DNA from: Neoroseomonas marina
GTDB lineage: Bacteria > Pseudomonadota > Alphaproteobacteria > Acetobacterales > Acetobacteraceae
Assembly (NCBI RefSeq): GCF_012927745.1
Contig: NZ_JABBKX010000003.1
Coordinates: forward strand, 434,001 to 498,000
DNA: 64,000 nucleotides
Reading direction: 5' to 3'
The translations under genes and the position numbers were made by a program. This document shows, one piece after another, positions 1-13,857 of the stretch (position 1 is its first letter; each line of letters starts with the position of its first letter). The notes under the pieces are model-generated. The model searched no databases. It was not told the origin of the DNA and was given only the letters and a program-made list of their open reading frames with translations.

Positions 1-1032
1 CGCGGTGAATCCGGAATCCGCGCAGCCCCCGGTGAACTCCCCTTCCACCTTCAGACCCGTATCGGCCGCGGCCGCCTGATAGACCTTGAACACGCGGTCC
101 GAGGCCGGCGTCGGGTTCAGCGGCAGGAACTCGCCCTTGATGGTGAGCACGGACTTCGTCCCGGGCACGTAGGCGCGCGCGACGATGTCGTGGATCTTGC
201 CCATGATCTCGTCGCGGTCGGCGGGCTCGATGTAGCGCAGGTCGATCTGGAACTGGCAGTTCGGCGCGGTGGTATTCACCGACTGCCCGCCCTGGATCAG
301 GCCGACGTTGAGCGTGATCCCGCGCTTGAGGTCCGTCAGCGCATGGATGGCGACGATCTTGTTCGCCGCCTCCCCGATGGCGCTGATGCCCGCTTCGAAA
401 TTGCCGCCCGAATGCGCGGCCTTGCCTTCGATGTCGACGACGCTGAACACGCCGCCCTTGCGCGCCTTCACGACATTGCCCGAGGCGCGGCCCGGCTCGC
501 TGTTGAAGACGACGCGCGCGTTCTTCGCCTCGGCCTCGATGACGGGGCGGCCTTCGGGGCTCCCGATCTCCTCGTCACCGGTGAAGAGCCCGACGAGCGG
601 GCCCGGCGCGCCGCCGAACTTCGCGAAGGCGGCGAGGACGAACATGTTCATCACGATGCCGGCCTTCATGTCCGCGACGCCGGGGCCGTAGGCGCGCCCG
701 CCCTTGATCGTGAACGGGCGACGTTCCGGCTCGCCCTTCGGGAAGACCGTGTCGCGATGACCCATCAGCACGATGTTGCTGCGCTGGTTGCCGGTGCCGA
801 GGGCATGGCCGCCCTCGACGATGCCGCGGATGCAGTCGCCGTGCTTCTGCTGCGGCAAGGTCTCCGTGGGGATGCCGTGGGAGGCGAGGAAGCGCTTCAC
901 CTGCGTGCCGGTGCGGTCGACGCCGTCCTTGTCGTAGGACCCGCCATCGGTGTTCACCATCTCGGCAAGTTCGGCGAGCATCGCGTCCTTCTGCGATGCC
1001 AGCCAGGCGGTGATCTGCGCTTCCGTGCTCAT
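1..1032 (-). CDS. M20 family metallopeptidase (glutamate carboxypeptidase-like), 3'-truncated by window edge
   Basis: Zinc-dependent hydrolase of the M20/ArgE/DapE/CPG2 family that cleaves an amide or peptide bond, probably of an N-acyl amino acid. The first 344 codons are visible; the C-terminus lies outside the window. Metal-site motifs are in order: GHRDTVF (His92), GPGVADMKAG (Asp121) and TGDEEIGSPEGR (Glu154/Glu155), followed by the dimerisation (lid) domain with AAHSGGNFEAG. There is no signal peptide, so it should be cytoplasmic. The ATG at 1032 is the only reasonable start. It is the last visible gene of a minus-strand run, 55 bp after an amidase, which suggests it finishes breakdown of an amide product. 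The substrate cannot be read from sequence. Confidence 0.88.
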   Translation of the reverse strand, partial: MSTEAQITAWLASQKDAMLAELAEMVNTDGGSYDKDGVDRTGTQVKRFLASHGIPTETLPQQKHGDCIRGIVEGGHALGTGNQRSNIVLMGHRDTVFPKGEPERRPFTIKGGRAYGPGVADMKAGIVMNMFVLAAFAKFGGAPGPLVGLFTGDEEIGSPEGRPVIEAEAKNARVVFNSEPGRASGNVVKARKGGVFSVVDIEGKAAHSGGNFEAGISAIGEAANKIVAIHALTDLKRGITLNVGLIQGGQSVNTTAPNCQFQIDLRYIEPADRDEIMGKIHDIVARAYVPGTKSVLTIKGEFLPLNPTPASDRVFKVYQAAAADTGLKVEGEFTGGCADSGFTA

Positions 1033-1087
1033 GGGCATTCTCCTTGTGGGGCGGAGGATCGCACCGTCGCCGCGCCGCGCAAGGGGC

Positions 1088-2458
1088 TCAGAGCGACGGC
1101 CAGCGATGCGCCCAGGGATGCGCGGCCTCGTATTGCCGCGCGAGCGCGATCAGCCGCCAATCGGCGCCAAAGGGCCCGATGAGCTGCACGCCGATCGGCA
1201 GACCATCCGGCGCGGGATCGACCGGGACGTTCAGTCCCGGCAGGCCGCCCGCATTCACGATGCCGGTGAAGGCGCGGTGATGGGGCGGGCCGAATTGCGT
1301 CGCATCCCAAGGCAGCGCGCCGGCCGAGGGCGTGACGATCACGTCCCAGCTGCGGAAGGCGACGGCGAACTGGGCCTGCACCTCGCGGAACGCGTTCAGC
1401 GCCTCGATGTAGTCGGCGACGGTGAAGCCGGCCGCCTGGTCCATCATCTCCTCGTAGATCGCGCCGATGCGGCCGCGCCAGTCCCGGTCGCGCAGCAGCC
1501 AGGAGAGGCCCGAGGCCGTCAGCACCGGCCAGTGCCGGTCAAAGAGGGCGAGGTCCACGGGCATCGTCCCTTCCTCGACGCGATGCCCGAGCGCGGCGAG
1601 GTTGCGCGCGGCGCCGGCGCAGGACGCCGCGACGGGCGCATCCACCTCCCAATCTCCGAAGCGCGGCACGTAGAGGATGCGCAGCCCCGCGGGCGGCGGC
1701 GGTTCCTCATGCGGGCCGGGAACGCCAACGGACAGCCGGTCCTCATCCAGCGGCCCCTGGATGACCGACAGCACCGTCGCGAGGTCATCCACCGTACGCG
1801 CAAGCGGCCCGATCACCTCGGCATCGTCGAGGATGACCGGCAGCCCGTTGCGCCGCGCGACGCGCCCCGCGGTCGGCTTAAGCCCCAGCAGTCCGCAATG
1901 CGAGGCCGGCCGCCGGATCGACCCGCCCCCATCGGTGCCGAGCGTCACCGGCCCGAAGCCCGAGGCAACCGACGCCGCGCCACCGCCCGTCGAAGCGCCC
2001 GGCGTCAGCGCCGTGTTCCAGGGATTGCGCGTGGTGCCGAAGGATTTGGTGTCGCAGTTCCCGCGCCCGAGCGTGAACTCCGACACGTTGGTCTTGCCGA
2101 GGATCACCGCGCCACCGGCGCGCAGGCGAGCGACCGGCGTCTCGTCGGCCTCGGGGACGTAGTCGAGGTAGAGCTCGCTGCCCCAGGCGCAGCGCAGCCC
2201 GGCGACCGTGATGTTGTCCTTGATCGAGACCGGCACGCCATCCAGCGGCCCGAGCGGCCGGCCGGCGGCGAAGCGCGCATCGGCCGCCGTCGCCGCCGCC
2301 AGCGCGCCCGCCTCATCGAGCGTCGCGAAGGCGTTCAGCTTCGGGTTCGCCGCGGCGATGCGGTCGAGCACCGCGCGCAGCGCCGCGCCAGGCGTCAGGC
2401 TGCCATCGCGATAGCGCGCGGCGAGTGCCGTCGCCGGTAGCTGCCAGATCTCGGTCAT
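1088..2458 (-). CDS. Amidase (amidase-signature family)
   Basis: Amidase-signature hydrolase of 456 aa, the usual length. The catalytic triad is recognisable: Lys80 in GVPVSIKDN, the cis-Ser in GASTGGGAA (about Ser156) and the nucleophile Ser180 in GTDGGGSIRRPA. It hydrolyses a carboxamide to acid plus ammonia; the substrate is unknown. GatA is unlikely because no gatC or gatB is adjacent and the C-terminal half resembles stand-alone amidases. It lies 27 bp downstream of a Bug receptor gene and 55 bp upstream of the M20 peptidase, in one transcription unit with a second, distinct amidase at 4698-6113. Confidence 0.9.
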   Translation of the reverse strand: MTEIWQLPATALAARYRDGSLTPGAALRAVLDRIAAANPKLNAFATLDEAGALAAATAADARFAAGRPLGPLDGVPVSIKDNITVAGLRCAWGSELYLDYVPEADETPVARLRAGGAVILGKTNVSEFTLGRGNCDTKSFGTTRNPWNTALTPGASTGGGAASVASGFGPVTLGTDGGGSIRRPASHCGLLGLKPTAGRVARRNGLPVILDDAEVIGPLARTVDDLATVLSVIQGPLDEDRLSVGVPGPHEEPPPPAGLRILYVPRFGDWEVDAPVAASCAGAARNLAALGHRVEEGTMPVDLALFDRHWPVLTASGLSWLLRDRDWRGRIGAIYEEMMDQAAGFTVADYIEALNAFREVQAQFAVAFRSWDVIVTPSAGALPWDATQFGPPHHRAFTGIVNAGGLPGLNVPVDPAPDGLPIGVQLIGPFGADWRLIALARQYEAAHPWAHRWPSL

Positions 2459-2485
2459 GCGGCCCCCTTCGTGTCGGAGGGAAGC

Positions 2486-3457
2486 CTACTCGATCTTGCC
2501 GAGGGCGCGCACCACGCGGACCAGGCGCGCGGCGTCCTCGCCATAGAAGCGCTGGAACGCCTCGCCGTCGCGATGGTCGATGGTGTTGCCGCTGGCTTCC
2601 ATCGCGCGACGGAACTCGGGATCGGCGGACACCAGGCGCGATGCGTCGCGGATGCGCGCGATGACCGGCGCGGGCGTGGCCGCGGGCGCAAAGAGCCCGA
2701 CCCAGATGTAGAACTCGCAATCCGGGAAGCCCTTCTCGATCAGCGTCGGCACCTCCTCGAAGCCAGCGAGGCGCGTGCGCCCCCAGGTCGCGATCGGCCG
2801 CAGGGCGCCGCTGCGCACATGCGGCGCAATGGGACCAGGCCCCGAGGCCAGGCAGTTCACCTGGCCCGCGAGCAGCGCCGTCAGCGCGGGCCCACCGCCC
2901 TGGAAGGGTACGTGCAGCATGTCGAGCCCCGCCGCCTGGCTCAACTGCGCCATCGGCACATGCAGCGCCGAGTAGTTGCCCGCCGAGGAATAGGAGACCT
3001 GCCCAGGGCGCGCCTTCGCATCGGCGATGAACTGCTCGATGGTGCGGATGGGGCTCGCGGACGGCACCACCAGCACGGTGGGATCGGCGGAGAACAGCGC
3101 GATCGGCGCCAGCATGTCGGGCGTGTAGGTCGGCTCGCGACCGTTCACCCGCGCGGCCTCGGGCAGCAGTGCCATGGAGGAGAGCGCCATCAGCAGCGTG
3201 TAGCCGTCCGGCGTCGCGCGCGCGACCGAGGCGTTCCCGATCGCCCCCGCCGCCCCGCCGCGGTTCACGATCGGCACCGCGACGCGCCATATCCGCTCGA
3301 GCGCCGCCGCCACCGGCCGCCCCACCACATCCGCCTGCCCGCCCGGCGGGAAGGCGACGACCATGCTGAGGGGGCGCGTGGGGAAACTCTCCTGCGCCCG
3401 CGCCGCGCCCGCGAAGGCGGCAACGGCGGCGGAGCCGATCAGGACGCGACGCTTCAT
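2486..3457 (-). CDS. Bug/TctC-family periplasmic solute-binding protein
   Basis: A 323-aa periplasmic receptor of the Bug (TctC, tripartite tricarboxylate transporter receptor) family. It has an N-terminal signal peptide (hydrophobic stretch ending near ARA-QE, residues about 1-21), then the family hallmarks RPLSMVVAFPPGGQADVVGR and NRGGAAGAIG, which form the ligand carboxylate-binding loops. Such proteins bind small carboxylates or amides and usually work with TctA/TctB membrane subunits, which are absent from this window. Its place between a FAH-family hydrolase and an amidase suggests that it captures the substrate of this operon. Confidence 0.9.
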   Translation of the reverse strand: MKRRVLIGSAAVAAFAGAARAQESFPTRPLSMVVAFPPGGQADVVGRPVAAALERIWRVAVPIVNRGGAAGAIGNASVARATPDGYTLLMALSSMALLPEAARVNGREPTYTPDMLAPIALFSADPTVLVVPSASPIRTIEQFIADAKARPGQVSYSSAGNYSALHVPMAQLSQAAGLDMLHVPFQGGGPALTALLAGQVNCLASGPGPIAPHVRSGALRPIATWGRTRLAGFEEVPTLIEKGFPDCEFYIWVGLFAPAATPAPVIARIRDASRLVSADPEFRRAMEASGNTIDHRDGEAFQRFYGEDAARLVRVVRALGKIE

Positions 3458-3495
3458 TCTCTTCTTTCCTCCCGGTTGGTCTCGTTGGCCTCAGG

Positions 3496-4371
3496 TCACG
3501 CGACGGGGTTCTCCAGCACGCCGATGCCGGGCACCTCGATGCGCACCTTGTCGCCGGGCTTGAGGAATCTCGGCGGCGAGAAGCCGATGCCCACGCCCGC
3601 CGGCGTGCCGGTCGCGATGATGTCCCCCGGTTCCAGCGTGATCGCCGCGCTGATCGTCGCGATCAGGGTCGGGATGCCGAAGATCAGGTCGTCGACCGGC
3701 GCCCGCTGGCGCAGCTCGCCATTCACCCAGGTCGAGATCGCGAGCTTCGGCGGCGTCCCGGCGGCATCGGCCGTCACGATCGCCGGGCCCATCGGGCAGA
3801 AGCCGTCGATGCCCTTGCCGAGGATCCACTGGCGATGCTTGTGCTGCAGCGTGCGCGCGGTGACGTCGTTGACGATGGTGTAGCCGAAGACGTGCCCGTA
3901 GGCGTCGGCCTCGCTGATGCCGCGGCCGCCCTTGCCGATGACGACGGCGATCTCGCCCTCGTAATCCGTGCTGTTCGAGGAATCGAGGAAGGAGGGGATC
4001 GGGTCGTGCGGGCCGATCACGCTGGTGGGCGGCTTGCTGAACACGACCGGTGCCTCGGGCACCACTTCCTTCGCCGTGGCGTCGAAGCCGCTGTTCGCGA
4101 ATTCCTTCGCGTGCTCGTGGTAGTTCTTGCCGACGCAGAAGACGTTCTTCGCCGGGCGCGGGATGGGCGCGAGGATCGTGGCCCCTTCGGCGACCGGCGC
4201 CTTCCCTTCCGCCGCGCGGGCGGCCGCCAGCGTGGCGGCGCCACCCGCGATCAGCGCCAGCATGTCGCGCGGCAGCGCCGCATCGGCAGCGGCCAGGTCG
4301 AGCACCTTGCCCGCCTCGTCCAGCGCGCCGAGGCGCGTGCCCTTCCCGTCCTTGAACGTCACCAAACGCAT
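3496..4371 (-). CDS. Fumarylacetoacetate hydrolase (FAH) family protein
   Basis: A 291-aa FAH-superfamily enzyme that acts on C-C bonds of beta-diketo acids, or decarboxylates or hydrates them, in catabolic pathways. Divalent-metal ligands are visible as Glu138 and Glu140 in DYEGEIAVVIG and Asp169 in NDVTAR; the C-terminal glycine motif GTPAGVGIG is also present. The N-terminal cap domain (1-70) is of standard size. It is 14 bp downstream of the phnA-like gene and 38 bp upstream of the Bug receptor gene, so it is probably co-transcribed. The exact reaction is unknown; ureidoglycolate lyase-like and 2-hydroxyhepta-diene-dioate isomerase-like members look alike. Confidence 0.87.
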   Translation of the reverse strand: MRLVTFKDGKGTRLGALDEAGKVLDLAAADAALPRDMLALIAGGAATLAAARAAEGKAPVAEGATILAPIPRPAKNVFCVGKNYHEHAKEFANSGFDATAKEVVPEAPVVFSKPPTSVIGPHDPIPSFLDSSNSTDYEGEIAVVIGKGGRGISEADAYGHVFGYTIVNDVTARTLQHKHRQWILGKGIDGFCPMGPAIVTADAAGTPPKLAISTWVNGELRQRAPVDDLIFGIPTLIATISAAITLEPGDIIATGTPAGVGIGFSPPRFLKPGDKVRIEVPGIGVLENPVA

Positions 4372-4385
4372 GAAAATCCTCCCGA

Positions 4386-4694
4386 TCAGCGCTTGCGCAC
4401 GAATTCGGTGCGCAGCACCAGGCCCTTGATGCCTTCGTAGCGGCAGTCGATCTCCTCGTCATTCTCCGTCAGGCGAATGGAGCGGATAACCGTGCCCTGC
4501 TTCAGGGTGGTGCTGGTCCCTTTCACCTTCAGGTCCTTGATGAGGGTGACCGAATCGCCATCCGCCAGGACATTGCCCGCCGCATCCCGCACGCGGGACT
4601 TCGCGGCCTCGGCCGCCGCGGCGGCCACCTCCGAGGCGGGGCGCCATTCGCCGCTGGCCTCGTCATAGACGTAGTCGTCACCGTCGCCAGACAT
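4386..4694 (-). CDS. PhnA/YjdM-like protein lacking the zinc ribbon
   Basis: The C-terminal 65 residues carry the PhnA/YjdM domain, with AAGNVLADGDSVTLIKDLKV and the closing GLVLRTEFVRKR, an SH3-like fold. Family members normally begin with a four-cysteine zinc ribbon. Here residues 1-35 (including YVYDEASGEWRPASE) have no cysteine, although tyrosine, acidic and tryptophan positions still recall the ribbon. The gene starts 3 bp after the upstream amidase stop, so no longer N-terminus is available. Despite the historical name it need not be linked to phosphonates, and no phn genes are nearby. Its role in this operon is unknown. Confidence 0.8.
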   Translation of the reverse strand: MSGDGDDYVYDEASGEWRPASEVAAAAAEAAKSRVRDAAGNVLADGDSVTLIKDLKVKGTSTTLKQGTVIRSIRLTENDEEIDCRYEGIKGLVLRTEFVRKR

Positions 4695-4697
4695 GCG

Positions 4698-6113
4698 TCA
4701 GCCCCGCTGCGGCGCGGTTTCGGCGGGATTGGCGAGCGGCAGCGTCGCCGCGCGTTCCAGCGCCCGCGCGCCGCGGAAGGCCAGGTCGTCGCGATAGAGA
4801 GGTGCCACCACCTGCACCGCGCGCGGCATGCCCTCCCCGTCCAGCGCCACCGGCACGCTGATCGCGGGCTGGCGGGTCAGGTTGAAGGCGAAGGTCCAGG
4901 GTGCCCAGTCGCGCCACAGGGCCAGTTCCGGCTGCACCGTCGGCTGGTCGGCGTCGAAGGCCGCGGTTGGCGTGCAGGCGGTCAGCACCAGGTCGTAGCG
5001 CTGGTGAAAGCGCGCCATGGCGTGCGCGGCCTCGAGGCGCATCGCCTCGGCCGCCAGGTAGTCCACGGCCGACATGTCGCCGTTCTTCCGCGCGACCTCG
5101 AGGATGCCGGCATCGAGCATCCCGTGCTTCTCCTCCGGGATGGTCGCGACGACGCGGGACAGGGCGACGCCCCAGACGCGGCCGAAGATCGCGCGGGTAT
5201 CGGGCAAGCCGGGATCGGCTTCCTCGACGATCGCGCCCTGCTCGGCGAGCATCTGCGCGGCACCCGCCAGCACCGCCTCGCCATCCGCGTCGAGCGGCGG
5301 CTCGAAGCCCATGCGCCGCACCACGGCGACGCGCATGCCCGCGACGCCATCCTCGATCCCCTGGCGCCAGTCGCGCGGTTCGTCCGGCAGGCAATAGGGA
5401 TCGCGCAGGTCGAATCGCGCCATGGCCGAGAACATCAGCGCCGCGTCGCGCACCGTGCGCGTCATCGGCCCGGCCACCGCGACATGCCCGAAGGCGCCCA
5501 ACGGCCATTGCGGGATGCGCCCGAAGGAGGGCTTCACGCCGACCAGCCCGCAGAAGGCCGCCGGGATGCGGATCGACCCGCCGGCGTCGGTGCCGATGTG
5601 CAGCGGCCCGAAGCAGGCCGCGCCCGCTGCCCCGGCGCCGGAGGACGACCCGCCGACCGTGCGCTGCGGGTTCCACGGATTGCGGGTGATGCCGTTCAGC
5701 GGGCAGTCGCCCGGCGACTTCCAGCCAAACTCCGTGGTCGTCGTCTTGCCGAGGATGACGGCGCCGCTTTCCTTCAGCCCCATGACCGAGGGCGCATCCT
5801 CGGTCGCCGGCGTCGTGTCGGTGGTGCGGCTGCCGCGGCGGGTCGGGAAGCCGGCCAGGTTCAGCAGGTCCTTCACCGTCGCCGGCACGCCGTCGAGGGG
5901 CCCGATCGGCCGCCCGGCGGCCCAGCGCGCCTCGCTCTCGCCCGCGGCCTGCAGGGCGCGCGGGTTCATGGCGGCGAAGGCGTTGACCCAGGGGTTGTAG
6001 CGGGCGACGCGCTCCATCACGGCCTTCAGCGCCTCGACCGGCGACAGCGCACGGCGGGCGTAGAGGCCGAGGAGCGTCTCGGCGGACATCAGGGCGGGAT
6101 CGGTGTCGGACAT
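4698..6113 (-). CDS. Amidase (amidase-signature family), second copy
   Basis: A 471-aa amidase-signature enzyme with Lys81 in GVPATVKDL, a cis-Ser in GGSSSGAGAAG (about 157) and nucleophile Ser180 in GTDAGGSIRIPA. It is clearly divergent from the amidase at 1088-2458, so it is not a recent duplicate and probably has a different substrate. It follows the rutA-like gene by 45 bp and precedes the phnA-like gene by 3 bp. In the inferred pathway it could deaminate or decarbamoylate the ring-opened product of the RutA-like enzyme; this is an inference from position only. Confidence 0.9.
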   Translation of the reverse strand: MSDTDPALMSAETLLGLYARRALSPVEALKAVMERVARYNPWVNAFAAMNPRALQAAGESEARWAAGRPIGPLDGVPATVKDLLNLAGFPTRRGSRTTDTTPATEDAPSVMGLKESGAVILGKTTTTEFGWKSPGDCPLNGITRNPWNPQRTVGGSSSGAGAAGAACFGPLHIGTDAGGSIRIPAAFCGLVGVKPSFGRIPQWPLGAFGHVAVAGPMTRTVRDAALMFSAMARFDLRDPYCLPDEPRDWRQGIEDGVAGMRVAVVRRMGFEPPLDADGEAVLAGAAQMLAEQGAIVEEADPGLPDTRAIFGRVWGVALSRVVATIPEEKHGMLDAGILEVARKNGDMSAVDYLAAEAMRLEAAHAMARFHQRYDLVLTACTPTAAFDADQPTVQPELALWRDWAPWTFAFNLTRQPAISVPVALDGEGMPRAVQVVAPLYRDDLAFRGARALERAATLPLANPAETAPQRG

Positions 6114-6158
6114 GGGGCCACCATGTCCCCCGATCCCGCGCCGTTCAAGCCGGGGCGG

Positions 6159-7244
6159 TCATTCCGCGGCCAGCGGCAGCCTGTCCCTGCGGCAGTCCAT
6201 CAGCGGCTGGATGCGCTTGCCAAAGGTGTCGAGGCCTTCGAGGAAGTCGTCGAAGGTCAGCATGATCCCCTTCACGCCGGGCATGGTCGCGATCTCGTCC
6301 ATCATCCGCGCGACATTGGCGTAGGACCCGACCAGCGTGCCCATGTTCCAGTTGACCGGCGTGGGGGAGCGCAGCACCGCCGCAGCCATGGAGGTATCGG
6401 CCGCCGTGGTGTCCTCGGCCGCCTTGCCATGCAGGTAGGCGAGCGCCTCCTTGTCCGCGCCCTCGACATACAGCTTCCACTTCGCCCAGGCGGCCTCGTC
6501 CGTCTCGTCGGCGATGATCATGTAGAGCATGTAGGCGCCGATATCGCGGCCGGTCTTCTTCCCAGCCTCGAGCACGCGGGCGGGGACGGAGGCAGCCTTG
6601 GTCGGCTCGTTCACGCCCTCGCCGAGGCAGAAGTTGAAGTCGCAGAACTCGGCGGCGAAGGCCATGCCGCGGTCCGACTGGCCCGCCGCGACCACCTTTA
6701 CGCGGTCCTTCGGGCGCGGCGACAGGACGCAGCCATCCATCTGGAAGTAGTCGCCCTTGAAGTCCGACAGGCCGGTCTCCCAGAGCTGGCGCATGATGGT
6801 CACGTATTCGGTGCTGTAGTCGTAGCGCTTGGCGAAATGCTGGTCGCCCGGCCACAGCCCCATCTGGCTGTATTCCTTCGAATGCCAGCCCGAGACGATG
6901 TTCACGCCGAACCGGCCGGGGGCGATGGAATCGATCGTGCTCGTCATACGGGCGACGATCGCCGGCGGGATGGTCAGCACCGCGACGGACGCGAACAGCT
7001 TGATCCGCGTCGTGACCGCGGCGATGCCCGCCATGAGCGTGAAGCTCTCGAGCCCATGATCCCAGTACTCGGTCTTCCCGCCGAAGCCGTGCAGCTTGAT
7101 CATCGACAGGGCGAAGTCGAAGCCGTAGCCCTCGGCCTTCTGCACCACCGCCTTGTTGAGCTCGAAGCTCGGCATGTACTGGGGCGAGGTGGCGGAGATG
7201 ATCCATCCGTTGTTGTTGATCGGGATGAAGACGCCGATGTCCAT
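6159..7244 (-). CDS. rutA: RutA-like pyrimidine monooxygenase (LLM-class flavin enzyme)
   Basis: An FMN-dependent luciferase-like monooxygenase of 361 aa, close in length and motif order to E. coli RutA, which opens the uracil ring between N3 and C4 to give ureidoacrylate. RutA-like segments include [20 protein letters not shown] near the N-terminus, [27 protein letters not shown] and the C-terminal [21 protein letters not shown] chose the ATG at 7244 (MDIGVFIP) over an upstream in-frame start because the extra 23 residues are low-complexity and Arg-rich. No rutB-G genes follow; two amidases, a FAH enzyme and a Bug receptor do. The substrate may therefore differ from uracil. Confidence 0.85.
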
Positions 7245-7348
7245 GCTGCGGCTCCGCTGGCTGTGGACCGCCGGCGCCTGGCGCGCGGCGGATTGACCCC
7301 GCCGACGCCGCAATTACCGTGCCATGCGCGGTTGCACGGAGATCACCA

Positions 7349-8248
7349 ATGAGCGACGAGACGGCGAAGCCCTGGGAATGGCCGGAGACCCGCTGGCGCC
7401 ACATCGTCGGCCGCGCGCGTGCGGGGCGTTCCCTCGCGCCGAAGGCCTGGCCGGGCGGGGCGCGCTGCGCCGTCTCGCTGTCCTTCGATGCCGATCACGA
7501 GACCATCCCGCTGCGCGATTCCGACGAAAGCCCGATGCGCATCAGCCAGGGCCAGTACGGCAACCGGCAGGGCGTGCCGCGCATCCGCGCGCTGCTCGAC
7601 CGGCACGGCGTGCGCGCCTCCTTCTTCTATCCCGCCGTCTCCGCCCGGCTGCACCCGAACGAGGTGCGCGCGGTGGCCGACGAAGGGCACGAGATCGGCA
7701 TCCATTCCTGGATCCACGAAGCCAACACGCAATTGCCGCCCGGGGTGGAGCGCGAGCTCACCTTCCGCGCGGCAGACACGCTCGAGAAGATCGCCGGCAA
7801 GCGCCCCGTCGGCATCCGCACGGCGTCCTGGGACTTCTCGGTCGACACCATGGACATCATCCGGGAGCTCGGGCTGCTCTACGATTCATCGCTGATGGCC
7901 GACGACGATCCCTATGAGCTCGAAGTCCAGGGCGAGCCGACCGGCATCGTGGAACTGCCGCCCGAATGGATCCGCGACGACGCGGTCTACTTCAACATGG
8001 TGCGCTTCTCGGCGCTGCGGCCCTACACGCCGCCCTCGGCGGTCGAGGAGATCTTCCGCGCCGAATTCGACGGCGCCTATGCCGAAGGCGGGCTGTTCCT
8101 GCTGACCATGCACCCGCACGTCACCGGGCACCGCAGCCGCATCGCGCTGCTCGACCGGCTCGTCGCCTACATGAAGGCCCAGCCCGGCGTGTGGTTCGGC
8201 ACGCATGAGGAGGTCGCGCGCTGGTGCGCGCAGCAGGGCGGGTTGTGA
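7349..8248 (+). CDS. Polysaccharide deacetylase family (PuuE-like) hydrolase
   Basis: A 299-aa NodB-homology (CE4) protein. Metal and catalytic residues are visible: Asp47 and Asp49 in SLSFDADHE, then His119 and His123 in GIHSWIHE. There is no signal peptide, unlike peptidoglycan deacetylases; cytoplasmic relatives such as PuuE open allantoin or act on N-acyl small molecules. I chose ATG 7349, preceded by a GGAG about 8 nt upstream, over an in-frame ATG 30 nt earlier. It is divergent from the rutA-like gene with a 104-bp shared upstream region, which suggests joint regulation and a role in the same nitrogen-compound pathway. Confidence 0.82.
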   Translation: MSDETAKPWEWPETRWRHIVGRARAGRSLAPKAWPGGARCAVSLSFDADHETIPLRDSDESPMRISQGQYGNRQGVPRIRALLDRHGVRASFFYPAVSARLHPNEVRAVADEGHEIGIHSWIHEANTQLPPGVERELTFRAADTLEKIAGKRPVGIRTASWDFSVDTMDIIRELGLLYDSSLMADDDPYELEVQGEPTGIVELPPEWIRDDAVYFNMVRFSALRPYTPPSAVEEIFRAEFDGAYAEGGLFLLTMHPHVTGHRSRIALLDRLVAYMKAQPGVWFGTHEEVARWCAQQGGL

Positions 8249-8373: not shown

Positions 8374-9366
8374 TCACGTCACGACGATGTTGTACTGCCG
8401 CGCCACGGCGGTCCATTCGCCGATCTGCTGGTTGATGATCGCGACGAAATCCGTCCCCGTCGGCGGCGGATTGCGCGGCAGGGTCTGCAGTTCCTCGAAG
8501 CGCGCCATCAGTTCCGGACGCTGCACCATCGTCGGGATCAGCGCCGTCAGCCGCTCCACGATCGGCTGCGGCAGGTTCTTCGGCGCCGACAGCCCAAGCC
8601 ACTGCGCCGAGGTCAGCTTCGGATAGCCGAGCTCCGCGAAGGTCGGCACGTTCGGGAAGGCCGGCAGGCGCTGGAGCGTGGACACAGCGAGCGCGCGCAA
8701 CACCCCGTCCTTCATCAGCTGCACATTGGTCGTGATCGGGTCGATCATGGACTCGATCTGGTTCGCCATCAGGTCCTGCATGGCCGGCGCCGACCCGCGA
8801 TAGGGCACGTGGTCGAGGTTGAGGGCGTTGGCCTCCCCCGTCAGCATCGCGCCGAGCAGATGCGGCGCCGAGCCGATGCCGGAGGACCCGTAGCGGACCG
8901 GCCGCACACGCGCCGCGGCGAGGTATTCGTCGAGCGTCCGGTACGGCGAATCCGCCTTCACCAGAAGGACGTTCGCGGCTTCGACCAGCAGGCCCATATG
9001 GGTGAAGTCGCTGACCGGATGGAAGGGCAGCGTCGGCATCGTCGCTGTCGAAAAGACATGCACCGAGGCATGGCTGACGAGCAGCGTATAGCCGTCCGCC
9101 GGCTGCTTCGCGACGAAGTCGGTCCCGATCACCCCGCCCGCGCCGGCGCGGTTCTCGACCACCACGGTCTGCCCCAACGCCTGGGACATCACCGGGGCCA
9201 TCAGGCGACTGACGGTGTCGACCAGCCCGCCCGGGGGAAACTGGGCGACCAGGCGGACCGAACCGCGGGTCGGCCAGGCGCCCGACTGCGCGGAGGCAAC
9301 CCACGGGGTGGCCAAGGGCCCCAGCGCTCCGGCCGCGGCGAGCCCGAGAAATGAGCGACGATTCAT
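8374..9366 (-). CDS. Bug/TctC-family solute-binding protein with Tat-like signal
   Basis: A 330-aa periplasmic receptor of the Bug family. The N-terminus MNRRSFLGLAAAGALG has the twin-arginine pattern RRSFL, so it is probably exported folded by Tat, with cleavage near ASA-QS. The ligand loops appear as RLVAQFPPGGLVDTVSR and VVENRAGAGGVIGTDFVAK. It stands alone: the PilZ gene upstream is 135 bp away, the deacetylase converges on it, and no TctA/TctB genes are near. The ligand is unknown, presumably a small carboxylate. Confidence 0.9.
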   Translation of the reverse strand: MNRRSFLGLAAAGALGPLATPWVASAQSGAWPTRGSVRLVAQFPPGGLVDTVSRLMAPVMSQALGQTVVVENRAGAGGVIGTDFVAKQPADGYTLLVSHASVHVFSTATMPTLPFHPVSDFTHMGLLVEAANVLLVKADSPYRTLDEYLAAARVRPVRYGSSGIGSAPHLLGAMLTGEANALNLDHVPYRGSAPAMQDLMANQIESMIDPITTNVQLMKDGVLRALAVSTLQRLPAFPNVPTFAELGYPKLTSAQWLGLSAPKNLPQPIVERLTALIPTMVQRPELMARFEELQTLPRNPPPTGTDFVAIINQQIGEWTAVARQYNIVVT

Positions 9367-9962: not shown

Positions 9963-11534
9963 TTATTGTGCGAGGGCGGCGCTCCAGGGGCTCATCGCGT
10001 CCGTGATGCCCTCCCGCGTGCCGTCCTTGGCGATGCGGATCAGGTTCGGGCAGGCGAAGTTCACCGGCATGACGGCGTGCTCGACCTCGGTCACCTCGGC
10101 GTCGCGGGCCAGGACGGCGATGGTTTCCGCCCCCAGGCGACGGTCCGCCGTCACCCCGTCCGGACCCGAGACGTCCAGGCGCGGATGATGCGCCGCCACC
10201 TCCGGGCTCATGCCGAAATCGGCGACGTAGGACAGCATCTGGAAGACGGAGGCCATGATGCGGCGCCCGCCCGAGGCGCCGAGCGCGATCGTGGGCGCAT
10301 CGCCCTCCGCCCCGATGACGGGGCACATGTTGGTCAGCGGACGCTTGCCGGGCCCGATGGCGTTCTTCGCGTCCGGCCGCGGATCGAACCACATGATGCC
10401 GTTGTTCATCAGCACGCCGGAGCGCGGCAGCACGACGCGGCTGCCCATCGAGGACAGCAGCGTCGTCGTCATCGCCACCATCATCCCGTCCTTGTCGCAG
10501 ACGGTCAGGTGGGTCGTGCAGGATTCCGCTGCCTTGGGCTCGGCGTCGCCGAGGCCCGCGAGCCGATCCGCATAGGCCGACCGCATCACGCGGGCGAGCT
10601 GCGCATACCAGCCCGCCGTCGGCGCCCTGCCCGAGAAGTCCGCCCCGCGCATGCCGTCGAGCACGGCGAGCAGGGTCGGCGCCGCGGTCAGGCCGTTGGC
10701 GAGGAACAGCCGCTTGCCCCGCCATTCCGCCTCGAGCGCCGGCTTCACGCTCGCCTTGCAGCCCATCAGGTCGGCCGCGCTGATCGGCGATCCCATGTCG
10801 CGGAAATCGGCGAGCAGTTCGCCGGCCACCTCGCCTTCGTAGAAGTCGCGCAGCCCGGCATGGGCCAGGCGCTCGAGCGTCTCGGCCAGCTTGCCCTGCC
10901 GGAAGAAGCCGGGGCTGCCCTGGTAGGGCGGCACCGGCGGCAATCCGTTCGGCAGGTAGATGCGCGCGCTTTCGTCGTACAGCCGCAGCACGGAGGCGCT
11001 GTTCGCGACCTTCAGCGTGGTGAACCAGTCCTGCGCCAGGCCGCGCTTCGCCAAGGCGATCGCCGGCGCCATCACCACCGACAGCGGCAACCGCCCATGC
11101 TGCGCGTGCAGCTCGGCATAACCGGCGACCGAGGAGGGGATGGCGAAGGACAGCGGGCCGTGGACGTTGCGGTCCTCGAACACCTCCGGCCAGGTGAACA
11201 GGTCCGCCTTCTGCCGACCGGTCATCGGGTAGGCGGAAGGATCGAGCGCGTGCGGAGAGACGGGCCCGAAATCCAGGGTCTGCGGGGCGAGGTCCGGCCC
11301 CGCGACCTGGGTGAAGCCGATCCCGCCGAGGCCTGAATTCCAGGGCTCCACCGCCGCCAGCGCGAAGGCCGTGGCGACCGCGGCGTCGGCCGCCGTGCCG
11401 CCTTCCTCGAGGATGGCGATGCCCGCTTCCGCCGCGTCGCGGGCCTGGGAGGCGACCATGCCGCGCTTGCCCGTGGCGCCGGGCTTGGTGACCTGCCAGT
11501 GCTGCGTGACATGGGGGGGCGGCGTCCAGGCCAT
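9963..11534 (-). CDS. ggt: Gamma-glutamyltransferase family (Ntn hydrolase)
   Basis: A 523-aa GGT-family protein, made as a precursor that self-cleaves before a threonine. The expected cleavage site is Thr340 in SCTTHLTVCDKDG, followed by the small-subunit TTTLLSSMGS segment and the GGRRIMASVFQ substrate loop. It hydrolyses or transfers gamma-glutamyl groups from glutathione or related amides. No clear signal peptide is seen (N-terminus MAWTPPPHV), unlike the periplasmic E. coli enzyme, so it may be cytoplasmic. It is divergent from malate synthase G across a 178-bp region. The Ggt-related cephalosporin acylases are an alternative identity. Confidence 0.87.
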   Translation of the reverse strand: MAWTPPPHVTQHWQVTKPGATGKRGMVASQARDAAEAGIAILEEGGTAADAAVATAFALAAVEPWNSGLGGIGFTQVAGPDLAPQTLDFGPVSPHALDPSAYPMTGRQKADLFTWPEVFEDRNVHGPLSFAIPSSVAGYAELHAQHGRLPLSVVMAPAIALAKRGLAQDWFTTLKVANSASVLRLYDESARIYLPNGLPPVPPYQGSPGFFRQGKLAETLERLAHAGLRDFYEGEVAGELLADFRDMGSPISAADLMGCKASVKPALEAEWRGKRLFLANGLTAAPTLLAVLDGMRGADFSGRAPTAGWYAQLARVMRSAYADRLAGLGDAEPKAAESCTTHLTVCDKDGMMVAMTTTLLSSMGSRVVLPRSGVLMNNGIMWFDPRPDAKNAIGPGKRPLTNMCPVIGAEGDAPTIALGASGGRRIMASVFQMLSYVADFGMSPEVAAHHPRLDVSGPDGVTADRRLGAETIAVLARDAEVTEVEHAVMPVNFACPNLIRIAKDGTREGITDAMSPWSAALAQ

Positions 11535-11712: not shown

Positions 11713-13857
11713 ATGACCGCAACGAAGGGTCTGCACGTCGCCCCGGTGCTCAAGGCGTTCATGGAGACCGAGGCCCTCCCCGGCACCGGCGTCGAGCCCG
11801 CCCGCTTCTGGGAAGCGATGGAGCGCGTGCTGCGCGAGCTGGCGCCGGCCAATGCCGCGCTGCTCAGGAAGCGTGACAGCCTGCAGTCGCAGATCGACGC
11901 CTGGCACCGCGCCCACCCGGCGAAGCCGGTCGACCTCGCCGGCTACACCGCCTTCCTGAAGGACATCGGCTACCTGCTGCCCGAGCCCGCCGAGGTGAAG
12001 GTCGGCACGACCGATGTCGACGCCGAGATCGCCAGCCTCGCCGGCCCGCAGCTGGTGGTGCCGGTCTCGAATGCCCGCTACGCGCTGAACGCCGCGAACG
12101 CACGCTGGGGCTCGCTGTACGACGCGCTCTACGGCACGGACGCCATTCCGCAGGAGGGACCGAAGGCGAAGGGCTACGACCCGTCGCGCGGCGCCAAGGT
12201 GATCGCCCGCGCCCGGCAGGTGCTGGACCAGGCGGTGCCGCTCGCCAAGGGCAGCCACGCGGACGCGACCGGCTACCGGCTCGAAGCCGGCGCGCTCGAG
12301 GTCTCGCTCAAGGACGGGTCCAGGACCGGCCTCGCCCGCCCGGGTCAGTGCGTCGGCTTCCTGGGCGACGCGCACGCGCCGACGTCGCTGCTCTTCGTGC
12401 ACAACGGCCTGCACATCGAGGTGAAGTTCGACCGCGCCCACCCGATCGGGAAGACCGACGCGGCCGGCATCGCCGACGTGGTCATGGAATCCGCGCTGAC
12501 GACGATCCAGGACTGCGAGGATTCCGTCGCCGCCGTCGACGCCGAGGACAAGGTCGAGGTCTACCGGAACTGGCTCGGCCTGATGAAGGGTGACCTCACC
12601 GCCGAGTTCGAGAAGGACGGCAAGGTGATGGTCCGCCGGCTGAACCCGGACCGCATCTTCCAGAAGCCCTCGGGCGGGGCGGTCACGCTGCATGGCCGCT
12701 CGGTGATGCTGGTGCGCAATGTCGGCCACCACATGATGACCGATGCCGTCACGCTCGATGGCGCCGAGGTGCCGGAGACGATCCTCGACGCGCTCTGCAC
12801 CGTCGCGATCGCGCTGCACGACATCCGCGGCAAGCGGATGAATTCGCGCGCGGGCAGCGTCTACATCGTGAAGCCGAAGATGCACGGGCCGGAGGAAGTG
12901 GCCTGGGCGGACACGCTGTTCGCGCGCGTCGAGGACGCGCTCGGCCTCAAGCGCGCCACGCTCAAGATGGGCATCATGGACGAGGAGCGGCGCACCACCG
13001 TCAACCTCAAGGCCTGCATCGCCGCGGCGAAGGACCGCGTGGTTTTCATCAACACGGGCTTCCTCGACCGCACGGGCGACGAGATCCATACCTCGATGGA
13101 AGCGGGTGCGGTCGTGCGCAAGAACGACATGCGCAAGGCCGCCTGGATCGGCGCCTATGAGGATTGGAACGTCGACACCGGCCTGATGTGCGGCCTGCGC
13201 GGGCGGGCGCAGATCGGCAAGGGCATGTGGGCGATGCCCGACATGATGGCCGCGATGCTGGAACAGAAGGTCGGCCATCCGAAGGCGGGGGCGAACACCG
13301 CCTGGGTGCCCTCCCCCACCGCGGCGACGCTGCACGCGCTGCACTACCACCTGGTCGACGTCGCGGCGCGGCAGGACGAGTTGCAGAAGGGCGGCCGCCG
13401 CGCGGCGCTCGAGAGCATCCTGACGGTGCCGCTCGCCGAGAACACCAACTGGTCGCCCTCGGACGTGCAGGCCGAGCTCGACAACAACGCGCAGGGCATC
13501 CTGGGCTATGTCGTGCGCTGGGTGGACCAGGGCGTCGGTTGTTCGAAGGTCCCTGACATCAACGATGTCGGCCTGATGGAGGACCGCGCGACGCTGCGCA
13601 TCAGCAGCCAGCACATCGCCAACTGGCTGCGCCACGGCATCGTCACCTCCGACCAGGTGATGGCGACGATGAAGCGCATGGCCGCGGTGGTGGACCAGCA
13701 GAACGCGGGCGACCCGGCCTACCGGCCCATGGCCGTCGGCTTCGACGGTCCGGCCTTCAAGGCGGCCTGCGACCTGGTGTTCGAGGGCGCGAAGCAGCCC
13801 AACGGCTACACCGAGTTCGTGCTCACCCGCCGCCGGCGCGAAGCCAAGGCGGGCTGA
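11713..13857 (+). CDS. glcB: Malate synthase G
   Basis: Condenses glyoxylate with acetyl-CoA to malate in the glyoxylate/glycolate pathway, in the cytosol. The 714-aa length is typical of isoform G, as is the alpha/beta insertion in residues 130-260. Recognisable segments are [52 protein letters not shown] and the late [20 protein letters not shown]. The ATG at 11713 follows AGGAG at 11699-11703; an in-frame ATG 33 nt upstream has no such site. No glcDEF or isocitrate lyase gene is in the window. Confidence 0.97.

Follow-up and report, generated by a model that had tools for sequence, protein, structure and literature searches.

The 64,000-nt stretch of Neoroseomonas marina DNA analyzed here (contig NZ_JABBKX010000003.1, positions 434,001 to 498,000 of the forward strand; referred to below as the window) begins with a compact unit of seven minus-strand genes. 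The first gene of this operon encodes a RutA-type flavin mononucleotide (FMN) monooxygenase, and a gene for a PuuE-like protein of the polysaccharide deacetylase family is divergent from it (Table 1). This layout had been proposed in an initial annotation, and the gene positions in the window were found to agree. By coordinate, the operon genes encode an M20 metallopeptidase, an amidase-signature enzyme (Ami2), a Bug/TctC-type solute receptor (Bug1), a hydrolase/decarboxylase of the FAH family, a small PhnA/YjdM-like protein, a second amidase-signature enzyme (Ami1), and RutA, which starts with the ATG at 7244 and sits, in this genome, between the PuuE-like gene and Ami1. The intergenic gaps are 49, 27, 38, 14, 3, and 45 nt, so that the unit is as compact as had been supposed, but the range of 3 to 55 bp given for it does not hold. 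The M20 gene extends over the edge of the window and has its end 146 nt further on; the full gene (394 amino acids) lies at 11854 to 13038 of L009, a 20-kb stretch of the host genome containing the operon. The proposed family labels agree with Pfam and NCBIfam, except that the PuuE-like protein does not qualify as an allantoinase (86.6 bits versus a cutoff of 424.6). Ami1 has GatA-type amidases as its nearest relatives, and in the two PF01425 amidases the Lys-Ser-Ser region appears intact by eye at what we take to be the motif positions.

Table 1. Features at the left end of the window
Feature	Position (nt)	Strand	Basis or remark
M20 metallopeptidase, carboxypeptidase-G2-like	1-1038	-	Pfam M20 and M20_dimer; best PDB match 1cg2
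Ami2, amidase-signature enzyme, local extra	1088-2458	-	PF01425
Bug1, Bug/TctC-type solute receptor	2486-3457	-	PF03401
FAH-family hydrolase/decarboxylase	3496-4371	-	PF01557; best PDB match 8sky
PhnA/YjdM-like small protein	4386-4694	-	TIGR00686, 83.8 bits (cutoff, 80.2)
Ami1, amidase-signature enzyme	4698-6113	-	PRK06169, 519.5 bits (cutoff, 506)
RutA-type FMN monooxygenase, first gene of operon	6159-7244	-	TIGR03612, 601.8 bits
Divergent intergenic region	7245-7348	.	TTGACC...TACCGTGCCAT-like stretch, reads towards PuuE-like gene
PuuE/HpPgdA-like protein, polysaccharide deacetylase family, small-molecule branch	7349-8248	+	PF01522
Bug2, second Bug receptor	8374-9366	-	PF03401; often near RutA in relatives

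The gene order recurs in other Acetobacteraceae. From 117 confirmed stretches with a RutA locus, the best 80 were kept; in 73 of these, the RutA has an identity of 71% or more to that of the window, and the flanks reach at least 1.2 kb upstream and 7 kb downstream in 44 of the 73. A PuuE-like gene adjoins RutA in 20 of the 44 adequately flanked loci, and Ami1 (21 loci), Bug1 (19), Bug2 (19), FAH (18), and M20 (13) were found near RutA; PhnA (8/44) and Ami2 (3/44) are local extras. Among the 20 PuuE-adjacent loci, Ami1 was present in 15, Bug1 in 15, FAH in 14, and M20 in 13. The hosts include Neoroseomonas, Roseomonas, Belnapia, Dankookia, Roseicella, Paracraurococcus, and Paeniroseomonas, and the nearest named locus among the best 80 of the 117 is that of Neoroseomonas oryzicola, with a RutA 98% identical to that of the window. 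The M20-Bug1-FAH-Ami1 block is inverted and lies slightly away from RutA in one Dankookia locus (L033) and in Roseicella frigidaeris (L065). Since the same order was found in many species and several genera, and not in this genome only, the arrangement is more than a chance one, and the gene set represents a genuine, recurrent variant. The assumption of the initial annotation that the operon had not been described as such agrees with our search, in which no published description was found in the open-licence PMC library.

In a survey of 200 genomes of the family, the host genome included, 87 had the PuuE-like gene (E ≤ 1e-90), 91 had Ami1 (E ≤ 1e-180), and 65 had both. The two genes were at most 3 kb apart in 47 of these 65 genomes, always in divergent orientation. 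In 33 genomes, the distance between them is at most 400 nt, and 31 of the 33 do not have a RutA of the window clade (at least 73% identity), which occurs in 27 of the 200 genomes. The genomes G104 and G160, from two further species in the genus of the window, have the PuuE-like gene, Ami1, FAH, Bug1, and M20 in a row without RutA, and a 6.3-kb contig (L137) carries M20-Ami1 divergent from the PuuE-like gene, with neither FAH nor Bug. RutA, in turn, has no PuuE-like neighbor in 24 of the 44 loci. In 13 of the 27 clade genomes, RutA and the PuuE-like gene are neighbors in divergent orientation, and 5 of these 13 have Ami1 next to RutA, at most 3 kb away and on the strand of RutA; in the surveyed RutA-locus stretches, Ami1 was downstream within 3 kb of 16 of 25 PuuE-adjacent RutAs. 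Twenty PuuE loci (L121 to L140) had been picked by hand, mostly with Ami1 near, and the frequencies were taken from the 200-genome survey instead. As a divergent pair, the PuuE-like gene and Ami1 stand by themselves. Since the pair occurs without RutA, RutA can be regarded as a movable addition that either entered the gap or was lost from it.

The D-H-H metal motif is intact in the PuuE-like protein, as it is in HpPgdA: D47, H119, and H123 are invariant in 15 sequences, and the second His of the motif aligns to a Trp in the PuuE-type chain 1z7a. According to both sequence and structure model, the nearest solved relatives are 3rxz, HpPgdA (3qbu), and the PuuE type; the polysaccharide deacetylases come after these. 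Because the confidence of the model was middling (mean predicted local distance difference test score of 66), the fold matches, with identities of 24 to 36%, serve to back the sequence result. PuuE and HpPgdA are reported to differ in their metal (PMC3084791), and in this source and in PMC9304392 their branch is linked to cyclic imide hydrolases. From the descriptions in the latter, rather than by direct comparison, the protein can also be likened to HxnM and to the imidase of P. putida. It is thus a probable, predicted cyclic amide/imide hydrolase.

RutA itself is 61% identical to E. coli RutA and is above the equivalog cutoff of its family (498.3 bits). This cutoff is passed at 114 places in 52 of the 200 family genomes, with up to 6 per genome, and RutB is above its own cutoff in just 14; therefore, the RutA cutoff alone is a weak criterion. 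The host genome has one RutA, and its remaining matches scored at most 48.5 bits. In the alignment, the residues of the O2 pocket (L65, N134, V136, W139, and F224) are unchanged, and T105 is replaced by Ser; the roles of the residues were taken from PMC7662398, PMC10005588, and PMC8234197, the first of which reports, after Matthews 2020, that the T105S variant of E. coli RutA retains about 80% of the activity. As the initial annotation had suggested, we compared the protein with characterized RutA in a tree. Of 138 rows, 114 proteins were left after four broken or short rows had been dropped and identical proteins merged; the tree was built by a quick method and midpoint rooted for display, and 73 of the 114 rows have neither a PuuE nor a RutB/RutC label. 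All 29 PuuE-linked rows fell on one side of a branch with a support of 99, and another branch with the same support had on one side all 12 RutB/RutC-linked rows, of which E. coli is one. The window RutA lies outside the rutBC-operon group, and in its clade, as drawn with the midpoint root, PuuE linkage extends to the deepest branches. Ten positions are fixed differently in the 77 rows near the window RutA and in the 12 canonical rows; three of these (108, 137, and 140) are close in sequence to pocket residues. Most likely, the window RutA retains RutA chemistry.

The initial annotation had stated that rutB to rutG are absent. This is true of the locus: E. coli RutB to RutG gave no match in the 20-kb stretch (E ≤ 1e-6, over half of the query), and the RutB, RutC, and RutF family matches listed for the genome are all outside the window, RutD, RutE, and RutG not having been searched for genome-wide. 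The genome does, however, have unlinked, diverged RutB-like and RutF-like genes. The RutB-like gene (contig 43; L180, 3672 to 4352) lies beside what appear by eye to be transhydrogenase-like genes, and its product is 53% identical to E. coli RutB, with 276.8 to 277.3 bits versus a cutoff of 377.95. The RutF-like protein scored 211.5 to 212.1 bits (cutoff, 254.75) and the best RutC match 70.5 bits (cutoff, 169.1), so that the genome-wide search gave no RutB, RutC, or RutF over the curated cutoff. The RutB-like protein belongs to a separate clade of 13 sequences within the RutB family, in which D24 and K133 are invariant and C166 is present in 12, with Ser in one. In the family, this kind of RutB was found in 13 of the 27 genomes with the window RutA clade but in 0 of the 173 others (Fisher P = 2e-13), namely, in 10 of the 13 genomes with a PuuE-adjacent RutA and in 3 of the other 14. 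In the window's genus, 14 of 35 genomes have RutA; RutB-like proteins, six with at least 83% identity and one with 60%, were found in 7 of these 14 versus 0 of the 21 without RutA (Fisher P = 5e-4; E ≤ 1e-30, with at most 26 candidates scored per genome and some genomes incomplete). The RutB-like protein is nevertheless not an obligate partner, since it was not found in 14 of the 27 family genomes (5 of which have canonical RutB) or in 7 of the 14 genus genomes; 9 of the 27 have neither kind of RutB. Co-occurrence of RutF was discarded as evidence, since RutF-like genes are present in 138 of the 200 genomes (E ≤ 1e-50). The possibility raised in the initial annotation that canonical partners lie elsewhere is, thus, borne out for two diverged relatives but not for genes above the cutoffs.

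We also determined how often amidase genes are near RutA paralogues in general. Of 201 RutA places, 161 were distinct, and 110 had 4 kb on both sides; 60 added stretches, several of which end at contig ends, covered 62 of the 80 over-cutoff places that had so far been without wide flanks. RutAs with a RutB within 4 kb were called canonical, and the window clade was first set at a 72% limit, by which L077 and L079 were counted as other RutAs until the tree assigned them to the window clade. An amidase gene was found within 4 kb of 18 of 47 window-clade RutAs, 13 of 53 other RutAs without RutB, and 0 of 10 RutB-linked RutAs. It was found at 1 of 20 control places and at 0 of 14 RutB-like/RutF loci (1/34 in total), which gives P = 0.0001 for the window clade and P = 0.007 for the other RutAs (Fisher, ancestry ignored). 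The amidases of the other RutAs belong to subfamilies common to Rhodobacterales and Acetobacteraceae. Furthermore, four of the other RutAs have a RutE-like gene (62 to 64% identity to E. coli RutE) at most 4 kb away, and the one such gene that was scanned passed the malonic-semialdehyde reductase cutoff (303.9 versus 152 bits), which points to a uracil-like carbon flow there. Two of the four also have a gene for a distant isochorismatase-family protein. At L245 and L252, such a gene (product 28 to 29% identical to RutB) forms one minus-strand run with RutA and a RutE-like gene; these runs are possible minimal Rut clusters with another hydrolase.

Several other features were seen around the operon and its relatives. 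The stretch noted in the divergent intergenic region looks like a putative promoter and, when upstream regions were compared by eye, appeared common to several close relatives. The PhnA/YjdM-like protein aligns to positions 16 to 108 of its profile, with positions 1 to 15 unmatched, and it had no match in PHROGs. At 9963 to 11534 of the window is, by eye, a gamma-glutamyltransferase gene, and in many relatives a counterpart cluster (family tested in L074) holds its position close to Bug2 and RutA. A diaminopropionate ammonia-lyase gene (466.9 bits; cutoff, 276) lies at 6916 to 8091 of L009 (contig C20), about 3.8 kb to the left of where the M20 gene ends; it adjoins, by eye, sugar-type ABC transporter-like genes in a region flanked by Bug-receptor genes. 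A subgroup of window-clade RutAs (L019, L026, L031, L038, and L040) has a DUF1028 cluster nearby (L026 being the one locus in which the family was tested); at some of these loci, a solute receptor of family 5 and another luciferase-type monooxygenase are also present. On a plasmid of Roseomonas haemaphysalidis, the gene for a RutA paralogue (L198, 8001 to 9080) comes after a run of ABC transporter genes and a gene annotated as arylmalonate decarboxylase.

The explanation that we put forward, tentatively and with somewhat less than even confidence, is that a RutA paralogue was recruited to an amide/imide-hydrolysis module in which it performs a Rut-type ring opening. The core of the module would be the PuuE-like/Ami1 pair, often with M20 and here also with FAH and a Bug receptor. 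Reduced FMN, supplied by the RutF-like or another reductase, would bind O2 on its re face, and the resulting N5-peroxide would cleave a pyrimidine or closely related cyclic imide at its N-C(=O) bond to give a ureido- or amido-acid. RutB-type hydrolysis of this product may then be carried out by a hydrolase of another family, the candidate in cis being the amidase-signature enzyme Ami1; in the host genome, the unlinked diverged RutB-like enzyme perhaps also hydrolyzes the ureido- or amido-acid. FAH and M20 would act on other substrates or on later products. The conserved non-rut arrangement probably marks a variant ring-opening route.

Known systems offer partial parallels. Like the E. coli rutABCDEFG system, the host genome has a RutA-type enzyme with the same O2 pocket and diverged RutB-like and RutF-like proteins, but rutB to rutG are unlinked here, RutA is in a separate clade, and its neighbors in the window are amidases, FAH, M20, Bug, and the PuuE-like hydrolase. 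In the metabolism of biuret, one and the same step is performed by the amidase-signature enzyme AtzE and the RutB-family enzyme BiuH, as stated in PMC5806882, and cyanuric acid/biuret hydrolysis is therefore a precedent for a swap between the two families; Ami1, however, scored 196.3 bits against the AtzE cutoff of 425.75, and the ring-opening chemistry is different. RutA is near amidases, with no RutB within 4 kb, also on Rhodobacterales plasmids (Palleronia and Thioclava). These differ in having other amidase subfamilies, a GntR regulator beside RutA, and no annotated PuuE-like gene; in Palleronia, a malonic-semialdehyde reductase is found about 7.5 kb from RutA, and in Thioclava the distance to a flavin reductase is about 5 kb.

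The same data can be read as a plain Rut pathway with scattered genes, in which RutA opens uracil, the unlinked RutB-like and RutF-like proteins act as usual, and an independent amide module shares just the promoter region. The identity of the RutB-like protein to E. coli RutB and its D/K/C residues, the score of the RutF-like protein, and the tracking of the window RutA clade by the RutB-like gene, which is missing also from G104 and G160, argue for it; moreover, RutC and RutD are described as dispensable in E. coli (PMC8113886). We consider this reading rather unlikely, since both proteins are below their cutoffs, half of the RutA-containing genus genomes gave no RutB-like match, RutF-like genes are widespread, and the linkage of RutA to the PuuE-like gene is kept over several genera. 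Still less probable is a dedicated linear pathway for a non-pyrimidine N-heterocycle, along the lines envisaged in the initial annotation for the whole set, with import by Bug, ring opening by RutA and the PuuE-like enzyme, release of ammonia or acids by the amidases and M20, and cleavage or decarboxylation of the skeleton by FAH. The tight operon, with gaps of 3 to 49 nt, and the frequency of Ami1, FAH, Bug1, and M20 in the PuuE-adjacent loci would fit such a pathway, as would two annotated plasmid PuuE-like relatives that sit with creatininase-family, isoaspartyl-peptidase, and ABC-transporter genes. A linear seven-step pathway was nevertheless rejected as the principal explanation, since the pair occurs without the window RutA (31 genomes) and RutA without the PuuE-like gene (24/44 loci), and Ami2 and PhnA are rare extras. 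That RutA merely landed beside the module by chance or regulatory hitchhiking, without a metabolic link, is in our view quite improbable. RutAs of the same clade do occur in several other contexts, and the recurring gamma-glutamyltransferase cluster, together with what is by eye a malate-synthase-like gene, suggests a stable chromosomal place, but the PuuE linkage reaches the deepest branches of the clade, and RutA and the PuuE-like gene are divergent in 13 family genomes.

Recruitment of RutA to the PuuE-like/Ami1 module has points against it as well. In 8 of the 13 genomes with RutA beside the PuuE-like gene, Ami1 does not adjoin RutA: four of these genomes have Ami1 on a different contig, two have it 6 kb away on the opposite strand, and in two no Ami1 was found at the cutoff. 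Ami1 and Ami2 are outside the amidase subfamilies shared by the other RutAs, and Ami1 is no close relative of the amidases linked to them. The difference in amidase frequency between other RutAs (13/53) and RutB-linked RutAs (0/10) was not significant (P = 0.11), and the controls consist of 20 places from three genomes and the 14 RutB-like/RutF loci. Three sub-cutoff RutB matches (G003, G018, and G087; 300 to 342 bits) outscore the RutB-like kind and come from genomes without the window RutA clade; we set them aside as another kind, G003 and G087 being outside the RutB-like clade in the tree and G018 not being among its rows, but if counted they raise 0/173 to 3/173. All counts and Fisher values ignore shared ancestry. 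Furthermore, no malonic-semialdehyde reductase was seen in the window locus, and because ten RutA positions differ, three of them near the pocket, the substrate may have shifted.

A wider interpretation, which we regard as doubtful, is a radiation of RutA in Acetobacteraceae and Rhodobacterales in which amidase-signature enzymes repeatedly replace RutB, the route in the window operating with the PuuE-like cyclic imidase module on a non-uracil substrate. To our knowledge, RutA is among the few enzymes that cleave amides by means of a flavin N5-peroxide. If many RutA relatives in this family use other hydrolases, the automated label "pyrimidine utilization protein A" would mislead for many copies, and further substrates of flavin N5-peroxide chemistry could be put to the test.

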